Below are positions 5,088 through 38,330 of a DNA stretch of 41,372 bases, piece by piece. The notes under the pieces are model-generated. The model was not told the origin of the DNA, ran no database searches, and worked only from the letters and a program-made list of their open reading frames with translations. Source of the stretch: a virus; IMG/VR virus record IMGVR_UViG_3300017752_000037, positions 1-41,372 of that record; one strand, written 5' to 3'. A program made the position numbers and the translations under genes. Each line of letters opens with the position of its first letter. Positions within the stretch are counted from its first letter, which is position 1.

Positions 5088-6200
5088 CTATCCTAGTGCC
5101 ACTATCAGACCTACATCTGCTAGACCACTTGTCTTACTATCTACATACGCTTTGATTGACTGTTGCGTAGCTAAAAAAGTAGCACTGTCGCTACTCATAT
5201 TGTCTTCGTCTTTAACAGGAACTACAAAATCTAAGTTCCCATTTGTGTCGTCATATCCTACAGTTATAAATGTTTCTGTACCATCTAACATACCACCAAC
5301 GAAGTCTTCTACTTGTTCTTGTGACAACTGTGTATTATCGTTAGCTGTCATATCAGTAACTACTAAGTCTATAGTGCCATCTGAGTCTTCATAAGTAGCA
5401 GCAATTCTAGTTTCAGTATTGCTAGTAAACATAGCTCCAACTATGTCTTGAACTGCTTCAGTAGTAAGCTGTGTATCAGCAGTCATGTCATCTGCAACTA
5501 AATCAATAGTGCCATCGGCATCTTGATATGTTGCACTAATTCTTGTTTCTGTGTTACTTGTGAACATAGCACCGACTATATCTTGTACAGCCTCTGTAGT
5601 TAGGGTTGTATCAGTAGATACTAAGTCTATAGTGCCGTCACTATCTTCATAAGTAGCAGAGATATTTGTCTCTGTATTGCTTGTGAACATTGCACCAACA
5701 ATGTCCTGGACTGCTTCTGTTGATAACTGTGTATCGGCAGTCATATCTGTAACAACTAGGTCAATAGTTCCATCACTATCTTCGTAGGTTGCAGAGATTC
5801 GAGTCTCTGTGTTACTGGTAAACATAGCTCCCACAATGTCTTGGACAGCTTCTGTTGTTAAAGTTGTGTCAGTAGAAACTAAATCTATAGTTCCATCTGC
5901 GTCTTGGTATGTAGCAGATATATTTGTTTCTGTATTAGAACTAAACATAGCTCCAACAATATCTTGTATGGCTTCTGTAGTTGCACCTGTTCCATCAAGT
6001 GATACCCAACTAGAACCATTGTAAAATTCAAATGCTGCAAGTGTAGAGTTATACGCTATTTCACCAGTGCTTGGTGAGCTATTTCTTTGTGCTGTTGTAT
6101 GTGTAGGTATTAATAAACCTGCGTCAGCACCATCAGGAAACTCTCTTAATCCATCTGTATCAGAACCTGTACTGGTTACATGTATTGGTCTCTCTGCCAT
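5088..6200 (-). CDS. Tail fibre protein with tandem 34-38-residue repeats
   Basis: 370 aa. The N-terminus contains HTTAQRNSSPSTGEIAYNST followed by AAFEFYNGSSWVSL, a familiar fibre head motif. Residues about 79-305 contain six copies of a repeat with core TEAVQDIVGAMFTSNTET and ISATYEDSDGTIDLV, alternating shorter and longer spacers. The C-terminus (ATFLATQQSIKAYVDSKTSG) is the helix-forming TxxxVKxYVD motif found at the end of many phage fibres. The repeats predict a rod-like trimeric shaft. Function: a side or tail fibre linking the nozzle to the receptor-binding array. Confidence 0.75.
   Translation of the reverse strand: MAERPIHVTSTGSDTDGLREFPDGADAGLLIPTHTTAQRNSSPSTGEIAYNSTLAAFEFYNGSSWVSLDGTGATTEAIQDIVGAMFSSNTETNISATYQDADGTIDLVSTDTTLTTEAVQDIVGAMFTSNTETRISATYEDSDGTIDLVVTDMTADTQLSTEAVQDIVGAMFTSNTETNISATYEDSDGTIDLVSTDTTLTTEAVQDIVGAMFTSNTETRISATYQDADGTIDLVADDMTADTQLTTEAVQDIVGAMFTSNTETRIAATYEDSDGTIDLVVTDMTANDNTQLSQEQVEDFVGGMLDGTETFITVGYDDTNGNLDFVVPVKDEDNMSSDSATFLATQQSIKAYVDSKTSGLADVGLIVALG
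5300..5975. repeat. Six direct repeats inside the tail fibre gene
   Basis: Tandem units of about 102-120 bp encode the TEAVQDIVGAMF...GTIDLV repeat. Nucleotide identity between units is moderate, with many synonymous differences, while the protein core is nearly constant. This points to selection on protein sequence rather than very recent expansion. The unit number could change by recombination. Confidence 0.75.
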
Positions 6201-10718: not shown

Positions 10719-10740
10719 GGGAGCAGGTGGAGCTACTCCC
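10719..10740 (-). other. Hairpin after the capsid gene
   Basis: GGGAG and CTCCC flank a 12-nt loop in the intergenic gap between the capsid stop (10759) and the next start (10675). No U-run follows on the minus strand, so it is better read as an mRNA-stabilising or partial-termination hairpin than as a full terminator. Confidence 0.4.
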
Positions 10741-10758
10741 AAAGTTCCAATATTTACT

Positions 10759-11880
10759 TTAGCTATTTGTTTGTTCAAATAGTAAGTGATATGAAGGAGG
10801 TCCGAAATCGAATCCCATCTCCATATAAATTGCTTTACCGATTCTAGCGTTAGCATCTTGGTCAATATCTCTTACAAACACTGTTCCCTTTCCTGGGATG
10901 TTTGTGAATATTGGCTTAATGAATGCCAAGTCTAAGATGTAAGCAGTTCCTGCAGGCATGATATTAGGGTCTAAGACCATCATACCAATAGAACCAAACG
11001 GTGTTACAACGGTATCAATGTCGATACCTGCTACATTTCTATCCCTTGGGATAATTGCTGCAGCTAAACCAATGGTGCCTTTAGCTAGTTCTTTGTTAAG
11101 AGCTAGTAATTGCTTTGGTGTAACTACCAATACAGGTTGCTTCATTGGAGCATGAGCGTCATAAAGTCGCTTCATGCCATCAGCGATAGCATCCCATGTA
11201 AGGTCACGAGCTGCAGATGTTGCATCTCCGTCAGCATCACAATAATGTATGTTACCACCAACATAAGTTGGGGCTACTGTATTGTTAGCATTTGCATTTA
11301 AACCAATCCATTGTTTAAGACCACGCATTTCACGAGTTCCTGAACCTGGAGTGGTGTTAGCACCGTCAGCAAATGTTCCGTTAAATGCGAACCATTCTAC
11401 TTCTCTTGCTACTTTTTCCATTGCTAATTCTAATTGATTAGCAAATTCATCGGTTACTGGGTTACCACCAAAAAGACCAAGTTTGTCTCCTGCTGTAACA
11501 GTTCCATCTCCGTCTGAGGAGTTGGCTATGTTTGCAGATAAGTCAAATGGATTTTGATTCATGTAACTTGCTAAAGCTGTGTATGTCATTTGGACACCCT
11601 TATGGAATACCTGTGTAACGAAAGTATAAGCTACTCTGTCACGACCTAGATATTCTGTCGGAGCTGCACCTTCTTGACCTTTAGTAGGTTCTGAAGATAC
11701 TGTCTGATTATCAGCTGCTTGGATTTGAAAGAAGGTTGACTGTATTGCAGTTCCTCCATTTAAACCACCAACGGCAGATAGGAAAGGTGTTCTTTGACCA
11801 CCAACTTTAAACAATTCACCAGTAAAGTTATTAATATTTTGAGCATAAATGCTACTGTTAGTCAGGGATATTGCTCCCAT
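10759..11880 (-). CDS. Major capsid protein (HK97-fold, SU10/DUF5309-like)
   Basis: 373 aa. The N-terminal part (FTGELFKVGGQRTPFLSAVG ... FFQIQAADNQTVSSEPTKGQ) and the following VTQVFHKGVQMTYTALASYM ... LELAMEKVAREVEWFAFNGT correspond to the layout of SU10-type major capsid proteins. The P-domain segment PVLVVTPKQLLALNKELAKG and the GFDFGPPSYHLLFE end also fit. The gene has a strong AGGAGAAG Shine-Dalgarno and more G+C-rich, regular codons than its neighbours, as expected for the most abundant protein. It is preceded by the scaffold gene and an upstream promoter at 12.57 kb. Confidence 0.82.
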   Translation of the reverse strand: MGAISLTNSSIYAQNINNFTGELFKVGGQRTPFLSAVGGLNGGTAIQSTFFQIQAADNQTVSSEPTKGQEGAAPTEYLGRDRVAYTFVTQVFHKGVQMTYTALASYMNQNPFDLSANIANSSDGDGTVTAGDKLGLFGGNPVTDEFANQLELAMEKVAREVEWFAFNGTFADGANTTPGSGTREMRGLKQWIGLNANANNTVAPTYVGGNIHYCDADGDATSAARDLTWDAIADGMKRLYDAHAPMKQPVLVVTPKQLLALNKELAKGTIGLAAAIIPRDRNVAGIDIDTVVTPFGSIGMMVLDPNIMPAGTAYILDLAFIKPIFTNIPGKGTVFVRDIDQDANARIGKAIYMEMGFDFGPPSYHLLFEQTNS

Positions 11881-11939: not shown

Positions 11940-12398
11940 TTAGTTGTTCTTTTTTGCTTCTTCTTGTGCGTATAACTTAGCAGCTATAGATTGTTTTACG
12001 GTTCCTTTGTTGACAATTTCATCAAGCTGTGCAACTGCATCTGTGTTGTAGTTGTCTACCACAGAATTTTGTTGTATATTGTTTAGCCTGTCTTGACTTG
12101 CTTCAACTTGTTGTTGTAGTCCAACATCTTGTTGTAATCCGTCTTGTTGCCCAAACTCTACTCCAAATTCTTCTGTAGCATATTGCTTGATGTTATCAAC
12201 ATTTAGTTCGCCTTCAAACATCATATCTACTGCTTTACCAACACCTTTAGTAGGGTCTAGACCTGCTAATTTAAAAACTTGCGTTCTCTCTTTAGCTTCA
12301 TACTCTGCAACTTTTCCTTTTAGAAATTCATTTTGTTCTCGAATCTCTTTCCAGTTCTTATCGCCTGTGTTAGTTTGAGAGTTGTTCTCTTCTGTCAT
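11940..12398 (-). CDS. Capsid scaffolding protein
   Basis: 152 aa, acidic and Gln-rich, with a coiled-coil N-terminal half (KEIREQNEFLKGKVAEYEAK) and Gln repeats (GQQDGLQQDVGLQQQVEASQ). The GLDPTKGVGKAVDMMFEGEL segment resembles scaffold proteins upstream of the capsid gene in actinophages. It directly precedes the major capsid gene, as scaffolds normally do. It assembles the procapsid and leaves the mature head (family knowledge). Confidence 0.75.
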   Translation of the reverse strand: MTEENNSQTNTGDKNWKEIREQNEFLKGKVAEYEAKERTQVFKLAGLDPTKGVGKAVDMMFEGELNVDNIKQYATEEFGVEFGQQDGLQQDVGLQQQVEASQDRLNNIQQNSVVDNYNTDAVAQLDEIVNKGTVKQSIAAKLYAQEEAKKNN

Positions 12399-12566
12399 TA
12401 TTCACTTGTCTTTCTTCATACAGGTTTTTACAAGTGGTGTATGAGTAACCACTGGTTTATTCTACGCTACTGTTTTTATTTGACAGGTCTTGTCAGTAGG
12501 CATCAAGACCGATTACAATTTTGAAAGGTCATTTTTACCCCCAGACCTAACTATGGGGTCATATTG

Positions 12567-12594
12567 AGTATACCACATATTGTGGTTGTGCAAG
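12567..12594 (-). promoter_or_regulatory. Second late promoter, upstream of scaffold and capsid
   Basis: On the minus strand: -35 CTTGCA (12594-12589), 16-nt spacer, extended -10 TGG plus TATACT (12575-12567). The spacer contains the perfect inverted repeat CCACA-TAT-TGTGG, a likely operator. 23 of the 28 bases match the promoter at 32917-32944. It lies about 170 nt upstream of the scaffold ATG. The leader between them contains a small hairpin (ACCCC with GGGGT, 12537-12559) and no ORF, so the 12.40-12.60 kb gap is regulatory. It would boost scaffold and capsid expression. Confidence 0.7.
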
Positions 12595-30059: not shown

Positions 30060-31982
30060 TTATCTCCATGTATCTACATCCATATTACTAGGTTCGTAAC
30101 CAGAAAAGCTAGGAGTATAATCATGACCCAGTTCTGCGAACCGTTCTTTTTGCATACGCCTAATAGCTCTTAGTGGAAACCAACTAGCCATTACTATGTC
30201 AGTCTTTGTACCTATAGACTTGCTTCTGTTTTTAGCAGAACTAAAATACACTAACTGACTTGTATATAAGTTTACCTTCTCTTGTGCTTCAAAGCTAAGA
30301 TATGGCAAAGAAATTATTTTTTCTTGAAACATTGGTCTCATAGCTGTAACTCCATACAAAGGGTCAAATTTATTGTTATGAGTTTGATGTCCTTCTAAAA
30401 ACACACCATGAGCAGAAGCAAATTCTCTTATGCTTCTATCTTGTCGTATTGCTTTCTGAAAACCATTTTCTTCTATAACCCAGTGAGAACAATTATATTT
30501 TTTCCACCAATCTTTAATAACATCTAGTGCTTGTGGTATACCACCACCCAAACTGTTATTCATATCTACCATAGATAATTTATTTGTTTCGGAATCGTAT
30601 GCCCACAAAAAAGCAGCTTGATAGCCAGTAGAGGCAGGGTCAAGTCCTGCAATTAACCTAACTCCTGCAGGTATCTGCCCTATATCCCTCTTCTGGTCTC
30701 TACACTCTTCTATCTCTACTCTGTCAAATAATGCAAGACCATCTGGCATAGCTACATTAAGATATACCATTTCGTATATAGCTCTACCACCTGTAGTTTC
30801 TGCAGCTCGTTTTCTATCCATTAACCACTTGTAAGTTCTTTTGCTTGACCACAACATACAATCAACATGGTCTCCTTCATCCCAGTCAGGCAAAGTACAA
30901 CCTGTATCATGTGCTTCTTCTACTGTTGTTATCCATGATTCGTTTTCTAAAAGATGTGAATACAAATCGTCATAGTGTTGTCTTGAACCTATTACAACCA
31001 TAGCTGTATGTTCCTCTTTACGACTAGACAATGTTGTTGTCCACCAGTTTCTTGTGTTGTCTCTAGACGCAGGTTGCATAGTAGAACTGTGGTCTTCAAT
31101 GTCATCTGCAATTATTATGTCACAGTCACGAGATAAAATTTTACCTCCTCGACCTATACCTACCATTGTCGGACTTTTAATACCAGTAACAGTTCTTGTA
31201 CCTACAGTAAACTCTGTAGATGACCACGCTTTACCACTTCTGTTTTGTGGTTTAAATTTTGCACCTGGACCACATATCTCTTCTACTAATAATTCATTGT
31301 TTTCTAATTGGTCCATAACAGAAGATACAGAGTTCTTAGCTATGTCTTCGTTACCACCAACCCACAATATTCTTATGTTCGGATTATTACAGATAAGCCA
31401 GACAGTAAAATGTATAAGTAGTTCTGTTTTACCGTGTCTCGGTGGTGAGAGAATCATGTGTTGTTGACCATTTTCTATTGCTTTCAAAATAGACTTAATC
31501 CATTCTATATGAAAGTCTGCTGTCTCAAAAGCTATGCCCTGTTCTGTCTGAAAGTACCTGTCTCTAAATTCTTTAAAACCTTCTAAAGTTATTTCTTTTT
31601 TTGTTACAGGTTCCCAGTTTTTTTGTTGTTCTATAGTTTCTAAATCTTCTATGTAGGCATTGTATGCCATAGACACTGCAGCAACTGATGTTTCTAAAAC
31701 ACGAGCTACATCAGATAAAGTCATTTTCTTTTTTAAAATATTTTCAGCTAAACCAGATTCTTTTAAATCTTCGTATACTTTACCTCTACGAGTTTGTACA
31801 TTTTTTTTCTGGCTAGGTATATCAAGTTTATCATCAACTTGTGTCCATTCTTTACCTGCTTGTTTAGCTCTAGCTTTTTGTTTGTTGACTCTGTTGCGAC
31901 ATCGTTCACTACAGAACTTTCTTGCTTTAGCAGGTAGTACTTTGTGACATCCACCTGCATAACATAATTGTTTATCTACCAT
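30060..31982 (-). CDS. terL: Terminase large subunit with N-terminal zinc finger and HTH
   Basis: 640 aa from ATG 31982, which overlaps the previous stop (ATGGTAG); a TTG at 31997 would add 5 residues. The ATPase domain has Walker A SPPRHGKT (179-186) and Walker B CDIIIADDIED (287-297). The nuclease part has LIAGLDPAS (D448), WVIEEN (E504/E505) and KTDIVMASW (D595), the expected acidic set. Unusually, residues 1-31 hold a C-x4-C-x11-C-x3-C zinc finger, and about 87-111 an HTH-like segment (TLSDVARVLETSVAAVSMAY). Such DNA-recognition modules normally belong to the small subunit, and no separate small terminase was found. It packages DNA into the procapsid. Confidence 0.88.
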   Translation of the reverse strand: MVDKQLCYAGGCHKVLPAKARKFCSERCRNRVNKQKARAKQAGKEWTQVDDKLDIPSQKKNVQTRRGKVYEDLKESGLAENILKKKMTLSDVARVLETSVAAVSMAYNAYIEDLETIEQQKNWEPVTKKEITLEGFKEFRDRYFQTEQGIAFETADFHIEWIKSILKAIENGQQHMILSPPRHGKTELLIHFTVWLICNNPNIRILWVGGNEDIAKNSVSSVMDQLENNELLVEEICGPGAKFKPQNRSGKAWSSTEFTVGTRTVTGIKSPTMVGIGRGGKILSRDCDIIIADDIEDHSSTMQPASRDNTRNWWTTTLSSRKEEHTAMVVIGSRQHYDDLYSHLLENESWITTVEEAHDTGCTLPDWDEGDHVDCMLWSSKRTYKWLMDRKRAAETTGGRAIYEMVYLNVAMPDGLALFDRVEIEECRDQKRDIGQIPAGVRLIAGLDPASTGYQAAFLWAYDSETNKLSMVDMNNSLGGGIPQALDVIKDWWKKYNCSHWVIEENGFQKAIRQDRSIREFASAHGVFLEGHQTHNNKFDPLYGVTAMRPMFQEKIISLPYLSFEAQEKVNLYTSQLVYFSSAKNRSKSIGTKTDIVMASWFPLRAIRRMQKERFAELGHDYTPSFSGYEPSNMDVDTWR

Positions 31983-32233
31983 GCCTTGCAAGACCAATAT
32001 CTTGCTGTGGTTTTGTCTGTTGCAGTATCACAGTTGTGTCTTGCTCTAAAAGATTTTCTTGCTCCTGGGTTGTTTTTTCGTATAGCCATGTTTGGGTCAC
32101 CAAACATTACTTTGACTACTTTGTCACCCTTAGTAACATATACTTTAGATTTTTTTCTACCATACCCTGGTTCACCCTTACCTATTGCAGAAGGCGAATT
32201 TAACTTAACTGATTTACCTTGGTATGTTGCCAT
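31976..32233 (-). CDS. Small basic protein with ARHNCD...ARYWSCKxW motif
   Basis: 85 aa, very basic. The C-terminal block (RKSFRARHNCDTATDKTTAR then YWSCKAW) is a widespread but uncharacterised motif in marine phages, with two cysteines and a histidine that could bind metal. Middle residues KVYVTKGDKVVKVMFGDPN form a small beta unit. It sits immediately before terminase with an overlapping ATGGTAG junction, as part of a cluster of basic proteins. Probable virion or DNA-binding role (inference). Confidence 0.65.
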   Translation of the reverse strand: MATYQGKSVKLNSPSAIGKGEPGYGRKKSKVYVTKGDKVVKVMFGDPNMAIRKNNPGARKSFRARHNCDTATDKTTARYWSCKAW

Positions 32234-32691: not shown

Positions 32692-32721
32692 TAAAACAAA
32701 ACCCTCTCGGACAGAAAGGGT
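32692..32721 (-). terminator. Intrinsic terminator in the late leader, just before the first gene
   Basis: On the minus strand ACCCTTTC-TGTCC-GAGAGGGT forms an 8-bp stem with a 5-nt loop (one G-U), followed at once by a T-rich run (TTTGTTTTA). It lies immediately upstream of the first late gene, so without antitermination it should block the operon from the 32.9 kb promoter. If the TTG start were used, its U-run would overlap the coding start. Confidence 0.65.
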
Positions 32722-32826
32722 CTTATTTACCTTGTACAGAGTGTCATCTGTTATTCTATTGTGCTTGTATTGTAAGTTACTTATAAATTTATGTAGGTGT
32801 AAAAAAAATTTTTATGTCTAGCCTCT

Positions 32827-32910
32827 CCCTCACTTGCGTGAGGGGTCGACTAACAAACAAAGAAGGGGAAGCTATGTGAATAGCCATCTTCTGAATCACT
32901 ATAAAGTGAT
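32827..32910 (-). promoter_or_regulatory. Structured late-operon leader with three perfect hairpins
   Basis: Reading the minus strand from the predicted start near 32910: ATCACT-TTAT-AGTGAT (32910-32895), GCTAT-TCAC-ATAGC (32884-32871) and CCCTCAC-GCAA-GTGAGGG (32844-32827, a C(GCAA)G tetraloop). A T-rich run of about 13 nt follows near 32812-32798. The first hairpin falls right at the predicted 5' end. Together with the terminator 130 nt further on, this looks like a regulatory RNA leader, possibly a cis-acting antiterminator. The stems are direct observations; the function is inferred. Confidence 0.5.
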
Positions 32911-32916
32911 GTTCTT

Positions 32917-32944
32917 AGTATACCATATATTGTGTATATACAAG
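32917..32944 (-). promoter_or_regulatory. Main leftward late promoter
   Basis: On the minus strand: -35 CTTGTA (32944-32939), 16-nt spacer and extended -10 TGG plus TATACT (32925-32917). The spacer carries an imperfect inverted repeat (ACACAATATATGG) that corresponds to the perfect one at 12.58 kb. The near-identity of the two sites, both at gaps ahead of leftward genes, is the main support. Host sigma70-type recognition is expected, as no phage polymerase was seen. Confidence 0.68.
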
Positions 32945-33019: not shown

Positions 33020-33029
33020 AAGTATACCA
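33020..33029 (-). promoter_or_regulatory. Third TGGTATACT element (possible tandem late promoter)
   Basis: The minus strand reads ATGGTATACT, the same extended -10 as the two late promoters, about 100 nt upstream of the main one. The -35 region is poor and the operator repeat is absent. It may be a secondary or activator-dependent start. Confidence 0.35.
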
Positions 33030-33040
33030 TAGAAAAAATA

Positions 33041-36180: not shown

Positions 36181-36402
36181 ATGCCTAATATATTTAGGGA
36201 ACCTAAAGCACTTAAAAAATGGGCTATACAATTAGCTAATGCGTGTGGTGGACAAGAGGTAAGCACCTCTCCACTACTTACAACACTGAACACAAATAAG
36301 ATTAAAGATTTATTAGATGTATTTGTTGAAGACCATAACGAAAACACACAAGCAATAGCAGAAGAGATGATGAGTAAGCAAGCAAATAAGGAGGAAGAAT
36401 GA
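36181..36402 (+). CDS. Hypothetical early protein, 73 aa
   Basis: 73 aa, helical (EPKALKKWAIQLANACGGQE; NTNKIKDLLDVFVEDHNENT), with an acidic EEE end. A perfect AGGAGG Shine-Dalgarno is present. It overlaps the next gene start (ATGA). No known motif; perhaps a helper of the recombination genes that follow. Confidence 0.58.
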   Translation: MPNIFREPKALKKWAIQLANACGGQEVSTSPLLTTLNTNKIKDLLDVFVEDHNENTQAIAEEMMSKQANKEEE

Positions 36403-36644
36403 AAGCATTAGTACTACAACATTTACTAGAAATGGGTTCAATTAAATCTTTATTAAAAACACAAAGTAAAGATATAAATAAACTAAAGAAGCAACTGACA
36501 AGTATGATAGTTGCAAGAAATAATGTCGTACTGTTTTGTTATAGTAACGGTATAAGTGCTATTGAAATTGCAGAACTTTTAGGATGCAGTAGACAAATGG
36601 TTTATAAAATTATAGAAACAGACAAGCAAGGAGAGGAAGAATGA
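36399..36644 (+). CDS. Small HTH protein
   Basis: 81 aa. A Lys-rich helical N-terminal half (KTQSKDINKLKKQLTSM) precedes a clear helix-turn-helix of the homeodomain-like/sigma-region type at the C-terminus: NGISAIEIAELLGCSRQMVY then KIIET. It overlaps both neighbours by 4 nt. It is the clearest candidate regulator in the window and could bind the late promoter operators (inference). It may instead act in recombination. Confidence 0.65.
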   Translation: MKALVLQHLLEMGSIKSLLKTQSKDINKLKKQLTSMIVARNNVVLFCYSNGISAIEIAELLGCSRQMVYKIIETDKQGEEE

Positions 36645-37853: not shown

Positions 37854-38330
37854 ATGAAATTTACAAACAGTTGGAAAGAAAGACAGTCAGTACCAGACAT
37901 GGCTGACGAGTGTATGCAAAAGTATTTTAAAAAGAATAATCTAATAGAAGGTGAGGACTGGATTAAACTTGGACCTGACCCTAAGCTAACACCAAACATG
38001 AAGAAGATGTGGATAGCATTACAGATAATATTAGTTCCAGACTATGTCTTTGTTATTAAAGACAAACTCTATATAGCAGAGGTTAAAGGAACTTTAAAGT
38101 TTAAAGGCAGTGACTATCAACATCTATCCGAGATGTATGAGAAAGCTAAACCGTATTCTAATGTTAGGGTAGGCATAACTTACTTTGCACATCCTGATGC
38201 TGAACCAGTGTGGTTATCATACACAAAGGTAACAACACAATGGAATGACGAAAGAATACCTATGAAGTTTTATCCAGAGTTAGATTTGCATGGCAATAAG
38301 AAACCATACAAGATATTATTAAACAATTAA
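37854..38330 (+). CDS. PD-(D/E)XK nuclease-like protein
   Basis: 158 aa. PDYVFVIKDKLYIAEVKGT gives the catalytic pattern PD...ExK (D63, E76, K78), followed by a helix SDYQHLSEMYEKAKPYSN and strand VRVGITYFAH. This is the core of PD-(D/E)XK endonucleases or exonucleases. It is the last gene of the early arm, paired with the Rad52-like protein. It may resolve recombination intermediates or degrade host DNA (inference). Confidence 0.68.
   Translation: MKFTNSWKERQSVPDMADECMQKYFKKNNLIEGEDWIKLGPDPKLTPNMKKMWIALQIILVPDYVFVIKDKLYIAEVKGTLKFKGSDYQHLSEMYEKAKPYSNVRVGITYFAHPDAEPVWLSYTKVTTQWNDERIPMKFYPELDLHGNKKPYKILLNN

Follow-up and report, generated by a model that had tools for sequence, protein, structure and literature searches.

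Why does a nearly identical promoter sequence occur twice in a viral genome, and does its repetition point to a shared regulator or to something else? The question is raised by a stretch of 41,372 nucleotides (positions 1 to 41,372 of the IMG/VR virus record IMGVR_UViG_3300017752_000037; hereafter the window). An earlier note, made from the sequence alone, had described two 28-base sites at 12567-12594 and 32917-32944 as a duplicated late promoter with an operator embedded in its spacer. The coordinates, the bases and the 23/28 identity given there were all correct. Both sites are on the (-) strand, and their identity is 25/30 when they are extended to 30 bp. The sites and the genes next to them are as follows.

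12567..12593, (-) strand: putative late promoter P1, with the -35-like box TTGCAC (12593-12588), a 15-bp spacer (12587-12573) with CCACAATATGTGG, and the extended -10 TGG-TATACT ending at 12567; predicted transcript start at about 12561-12559, the same place in relatives
11940..12398, (-) strand: scaffold-like open reading frame of 152 aa, the first gene past the P1 leader (phrog_7813, unknown function)
10759..11880, (-) strand: major capsid protein (phrog_1328, 4.6e-29)
32917..32943, (-) strand: putative late promoter P2, with TTGTAT (32943-32938), a 15-bp spacer and TGG-TATACT ending at 32917; the terminase operon lies downstream
30060..31997, (-) strand: terminase large subunit (phrog_38, 9.5e-66)

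The duplication is not significant by itself and was rejected as such, since pairs matching at 23/28 positions or more also arose after dinucleotide shuffling of the window, with a mean of about 1.8 per shuffle (20 shuffles). It is the promoter motif in place, and not similarity alone, that makes the pair meaningful. Scored for the combination of -35-like box, 15-bp spacer and extended -10, just two places in the window reached at least 14, and each is intergenic and on the late strand; the same scan of 60 shuffles found a mean of 0.28 places, and two places were reached in 2/60. P1 lies in the gap that separates a 353-aa gene from the scaffold and capsid genes downstream, P2 in the gap upstream of the terminase operon. 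Both showed TGn directly before a TATAAT-like hexamer, as in extended -10 promoters. Their spacers of 15 bp fall outside the 16-18 bp of the sigma-70 class, a spacing that is not needed with an extended -10. The search pattern proposed in the earlier note, TACTTGYA-N14-TGGTATACT, found nothing as given because the true gap is 13, so that it was off by one. A third perfect ATGGTATACT, without a -35-like box, is located at 33021-33030 (-) inside a large divergent intergenic region.

We collected relatives by a capsid search and a terminase search, each of which yielded 80 loci. At the places of P1 and P2 these carried promoter-like sites composed of TTGCAY or TTGACA, a spacer of usually 15 bp, and TGn-TATAMT. 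On the capsid side the best match had a 15-bp spacer (TTGCAY/TTGACA-like box plus TATAMT) in 46/80 loci, where it was situated 678-736 bases before the capsid gene, and a 17-bp version was present in ten further loci; on the terminase side a like motif occurred in many loci at variable distance. Among 19 clade-A records, 26 of 31 matches scoring at least 14 were at P1 or P2, a count that is descriptive and not a test because the threshold was chosen after the sites had been seen. The motif thus did not turn up at similar frequency at random coding positions, the outcome that the earlier note had named as speaking against it. With promoter-like sites at the same two places in relatives, the duplicated late promoter is supported, and P1 and P2 would behave as late promoters as far as their sequence context indicates.

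The embedded operator did not find such support. It would require a phage regulator, perhaps the HTH protein encoded at 36399-36644, that binds CACAATATRTGG in both spacers and switches late genes on or off. The dyad underlying this proposal is perfect at site 1 (CCACA-ATA-TGTGG) and broken at site 2 (ACACA-ATA-TATGG), where 3/5 arm pairs are left. A single protein reading both spacers would call for similarity between the P1 and P2 spacers of a genome, which was not seen: in the nine genomes with both spacers readable, identity was 4.9/12 within a genome versus 5.1 between genomes (permutation p 0.78). Spacers were lineage-specific and unrelated in most relatives, the same binding sequence was not kept at both promoters across relatives, and spacer dyads showed no excess over shuffles (2.75 versus 2.62 at P1; 2.57 versus 2.59 at P2). 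In favor of an operator are an 18-mer common to both window sites and the recurrence of CACAATATRTGGTATACT or its core, both in several relatives (at P1 or P2) and within sigma-70-like promoters of three unrelated phages. A further point is the coincidence of the best matches to the HTH protein with P2 type ACAATATGTGG. This protein belongs to HTH_23 and had a match in 16/30 records, and its three best matches (window excluded) were the records with P2 reading ACAATATGTGGTATACT. Both the spacer recurrence and the HTH coincidence are confounded by kinship, and we regard them as leads only and not as evidence for a shared operator, which appears improbable.

CACAATATRTGGTATACT was found in 16 IMG/VR stretches, four of which represent P1 or P2 of this phage family. 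Nine belong to a cousin group, where they lie close to the terminase gene and are oriented away from it; in these phages (L083, L085, L086, L089, L090, L092, L093, L094 and L097), whose terminase is about 52% identical where long enough, ACACAATATRTGGTATAC stands about 350 bp before the terminase and points away. The other three (L084, L096 and L098) are phages without a match to eleven query proteins, in which CACAATATATGGTATACT lies within TTGACA-like/TATACT promoters, a sigma-70-like context assigned by reading. The recurrence is a lead for some recurring factor.

The region between P1 and the scaffold gene offers another answer to the opening question. It can be drawn as follows.

12396..12566, (-) strand: P1 leader RNA (5' UTR) of 171 nt, beginning just past the -10 and running as far as the start codon of the scaffold gene
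12526..12558, (-) strand: pseudoknot 1 (PK1), with covariation; stem 1 pairs CCCC (12558-12555) with GGGG (12542-12539), stem 2 pairs AGGTC (12548-12544) with GACCT (12530-12526)
12467..12510, (-) strand: pseudoknot 2 (PK2), nearly invariant in sequence; stem 1 pairs GGTCTTG (12510-12504) with CAAGACC (12492-12486), stem 2 pairs CTACTG (12499-12494) with CAGTAG (12472-12467)
12416..12453, (-) strand: pseudoknot 3 (PK3), with its 3' end adjoining the ribosome-binding site; stem 1 pairs AGTGG (12453-12449) with CCACT (12437-12433), stem 2 pairs TCATAC (12444-12439) with GTATGA (12421-12416)

By comparison of relatives, the P1 leader folds into three tandem H-type pseudoknots, in each of which a hairpin loop pairs with a strand past an often A-rich linker. 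PK1 begins at about the predicted transcript start. The last pseudoknot ends 2-5 nt from the core of the ribosome site in 52/59 leaders of this type, called type A (the other seven were not scored), and 3-7 nt from it in 19/19 leaders of type B; in type C it ends 1 nt before GGAGG, by reading. The window's own scaffold ribosome site, GAAAGAC, is weak.

Covariation among relatives supported this structure. Alignment A1 comprises 26 distinct leaders, each covering the stretch between the -10 and the start codon of the scaffold gene; 94.7% of its cells were paired, compared with 87.2% after shuffling and 32-51% for slid structures. Ten pairs changed on both sides, and double-change cells numbered 64 versus 19.9 in shuffles (0/500). 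RNAalifold, which cannot draw pseudoknots, recovered one stem of each pseudoknot from the leader. A scan with the most conserved 27 bases of PK2 gave 83 stretches, of which the 80 listed ones were examined, and the 59 distinct leaders drawn from the scan (A6) were 96.5% paired with 145 double-change cells versus 46.1 (0/500). TGnTATAnT was present upstream in 79/80 of the PK2-bearing loci, the remaining one being without that stretch of sequence, and the promoter was 81-88 nt upstream of PK2 in 78/80, the other two having no upstream sequence. Some helices had unpaired cells, such as PK3 stem 2, 90% paired in A6 and formed by 59/59 of its sequences when searched individually, and helix 6 of clade C, also 90%. 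PK2 letters were fixed by the search in A6 and partly so in A1 by the choice of rows. PK2 is near-invariant, so its own pairs are without covariation support; the capsid loci, collected by protein searches, contained no leftover type-A leader with a different PK2.

The same gap in the cousin clades B and C also holds tandem pseudoknots, three or four in number, with sequences different from type A. The three units of clade B (19 leaders) were 96.8% paired, with 13 versus 7.7 pairs changing on both sides and 64 versus 19.0 double-change cells (0/500); for the four units of clade C (20 leaders) the values were 98.5%, 13 versus 3.8 and 31 versus 5.6 (0/500). Two of the 80 capsid loci were too short to judge. 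By pattern, 28 were of type A, 23 of type B and 18 of type C, and the nine remaining loci were by reading variants of B (six) and C (three) whose changes compensate one another, six of the nine having entered A7 and A8. All testable capsid relatives (78/78, partly by reading) therefore carried one of the three leader types. Scans with conserved parts of the B and C leaders gave 78 stretches each, and a scaffold homologue followed in 75/78 of either type, as it did within 1 kb in 74/80 type-A stretches (the 80 listed of 83). The 12 stretches without the homologue end early, six of type A within 180 nt and six of type B or C within 125 nt. On the level of sequence, comparison of relatives thus establishes the promoter positions, the pseudoknots and the constant link to the scaffold gene. 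In three cultured capsid relatives (Bernal13, B22 and Dulem virus 32) the gaps before the scaffold gene measured 68-201 bp and contained ordinary hairpins, and no array was seen by reading. One contig of 40559 bp carried the same leader and the same promoter at two places (L282 and L299), which suggests end redundancy and hence a complete permuted or circular genome.

No Rfam covariance model matched at the gathering score anywhere in the window, and the leaders gave only chance-level hits at E<=5. Literature titles and abstracts yielded none describing such a leader, in a search too narrow to establish its absence from print. We rejected the possibility of a leader peptide, suggested by an ATG and short open frame in PK2 of the window, as three relatives (L040, L053 and L060) have indels inside the frame. 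No ribosome site precedes the PK2 ATG either, and clades B and C are without the frame, by reading.

The scaffold assignment of the gene downstream is based on its position before the capsid gene and on Mycobacterium phage Bernal13, where the gene in this position is annotated as scaffolding. Directly past the capsid gene we found a further conserved element:

10719..10743, (-) strand: conserved hairpin followed by TGCTATAAT, an extended -10-like sequence

In relatives the hairpin is likewise directly followed by TGnTATAnT (TGCTATAGT/TGCTATAAT), which was present in 64/78 capsid loci. It is a candidate for the end of the P1 transcript and the start of the next. The stretch from P1 to the scaffold gene yielded no intrinsic terminator, which argues against attenuation, and the simplest reading is that P1 gives an mRNA of its own for scaffold and capsid. 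The capsid gene itself has been exchanged recently, as capsid proteins with 97% identity (G001 (L008), window 10759-11880) go together with terminases at 56% and scaffolds at 30% identity. Promoter switching between near-identical phages was accordingly rejected, the 97% capsid relatives with other promoters being another clade. Elsewhere in the window there are short direct repeats at the very left end (1-44) and repeats 123 bp apart in a late gene (5539-5681 and 5816-5942).

Downstream of P2 the picture is less clean, and one region is relevant here:

32801..32916, (-) strand: P2 leader region with two hairpins and compensatory changes in relatives

Both-side changes affected 8/10 predicted pairs of this leader (alignment A2). 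We nevertheless rejected it as a clean RNA element, because its pairs are Watson-Crick and leave the strand unsettled, and because the opposite strand carries a strong ribosome site and, after it, an ATG that soon meets a stop codon (in the window, ATG-TGA). A hairpin with a T-run between P2 and the terminase genes was present in many relatives and, by reading only, in the window. At window 32697-32730 (-), a terminator-like hairpin (in relatives CTCCACTTCGGTGGAG plus TTTTG) is fused to the extended -10-like TGTTATAGT; this fusion lies just before the terminase operon and occurs about once per clade-A genome.

A scan of GTDB genomes with the capsid alignment found only two loci, on contigs of one Actinomycetota MAG that carry type C and type B leaders, respectively; two MAG contigs of this kind can be mis-binned. 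Relatives of capsid and terminase in phage collections included many actinobacteriophages. The window has a G+C content of about 34%, and PMC7771536 gives about 32.5% for Ca. Actinomarinales genomes. The host is likely a marine actinomycetote.

We infer from these observations that P1 is transcribed and that its leader acts in cis. P1 and P2 would be late promoters of the host-RNA-polymerase type in a lytic-looking phage of marine Actinomycetota, with P2 starting the late strand ahead of the terminase genes and P1, an internal promoter, supplying additional scaffold-capsid mRNA. The array would act on translation start and/or 5' decay of this mRNA, its last pseudoknot docking beside the ribosome site and its first shielding the 5' end. 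We put the probability of such control at roughly 60% and favor it since the leader is taken up by the array, whose end lies at the ribosome site. A broader claim is advanced only tentatively: these leaders might form a new class of phage cis-regulatory RNA, widespread among the phages of marine Actinomycetota, with three or four tandem pseudoknots along the entire scaffold-capsid leader. Such an RNA would set capsid output via ribosome gating and resistance to 5' decay, and would keep its architecture while the unit sequences are replaced from clade to clade.

Protection alone might also account for the array, if the tandem pseudoknots mainly blocked 5'-end-dependent or 5'-3' exonucleolytic decay of the RNase J type and made the capsid mRNA long-lived without any regulator. 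That the array begins at the predicted 5' end is consistent with this, as is the report in PMC5760640 that bacterial RNase J1 can be halted in vitro by a folded tandem element from a virus. The element described there has a ring topology that is not demonstrated for the P1 array, however, and the near-invariance of PK2 suggests recognition of specific letters, so that we consider pure protection unlikely. Processive antitermination of the lambda Q or put kind, in which the late polymerase is modified at the promoter or by leader RNA and then passes terminators, is rather more doubtful. Terminator-like hairpins do lie between P2 and the terminase genes and past the capsid gene, and the two covarying hairpins of the P2 leader equal in number those of HK022 put. 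A terminator is absent, however, between P1 and the first gene, and antitermination does not require an array that ends at the ribosome site. The spacers, moreover, do not show the conservation expected of a Q binding element. The 158-aa protein at the end of the early operon (37854-38330) has no Q family match; neither Pfam at 0.01 nor PHROGs at 0.1 gave a match for it, the other early genes having been partly scanned. Very unlikely, finally, is an array of ligand-sensing riboswitches controlling scaffold translation. The H-type pseudoknots with A-rich third loops beside the ribosome site resemble the layout of preQ1-I and SAM-II, but no Rfam family was found at the gathering score and nothing meaningful at E<=5, the three or four units are dissimilar, and a phage structural operon would be an unusual target.

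The leader is of interest in several respects. Pseudoknot leaders of DNA phages are rarely documented, and here a multi-pseudoknot leader is fixed before the scaffold-capsid genes in 78/78 testable members of a large group of marine phages. Strongly covarying as it is, the leader offers a ready test case for how a phage adjusts its amounts of scaffold and capsid. It can serve, too, as a marker of phages whose hosts are uncultured marine Actinomycetota. The case further illustrates that a repeated promoter can point to an RNA element and not to an operator.

Among known systems, sigma-70 extended -10 promoters are similar to P1 and P2 in TGn-TATAMT and a TTGnnn-like -35, the difference being a conserved spacer of 15 bp here and not of 16-18 bp. 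T4 middle (MotA) promoters combine a box near -30 with an extended -10, a layout shared by P1 and P2, whose box differs. At lambda pR' the Q binding element lies in the spacer of a late promoter. A possible protein site in the spacer and terminator-like hairpins downstream of P2 recall this arrangement; unlike it, the spacers of P1 and P2 are not conserved among relatives, and there is no Q family match. In HK022 put, a pair of stem-loops formed by the beginning of the transcript acts on RNA polymerase; structured RNA at the transcript start is alike, and the P2 leader with its two covarying hairpins would resemble put if these form on the transcribed strand, whereas the P1 leader is a pseudoknot array tied to the ribosome site of one gene. 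Flaviviral tandem exonuclease-resistant RNAs also place tandem pseudoknotted units in an untranslated region. They differ from the P1 array in topology, position (3' UTR) and virus.

The nearest known kind is the pseudoknot of the T4/T2/RB69 gene 32 mRNA, an autogenous translational operator that likewise lies in a phage mRNA 5' leader upstream of the ribosome site (PMC3014915). This 2010 review regards it as maybe the only viral case of a pseudoknot autoregulating translation. The P1 leader shares with it, by covariation, a pseudoknot in the mRNA 5' leader, and differs in number, place and gene: in gene 32, which encodes a single-stranded DNA-binding protein, a single pseudoknot precedes the start codon by 67 nt (PMC3014915), whereas the P1 leader has three or four in tandem, ends beside the ribosome site and precedes a scaffold-like gene.
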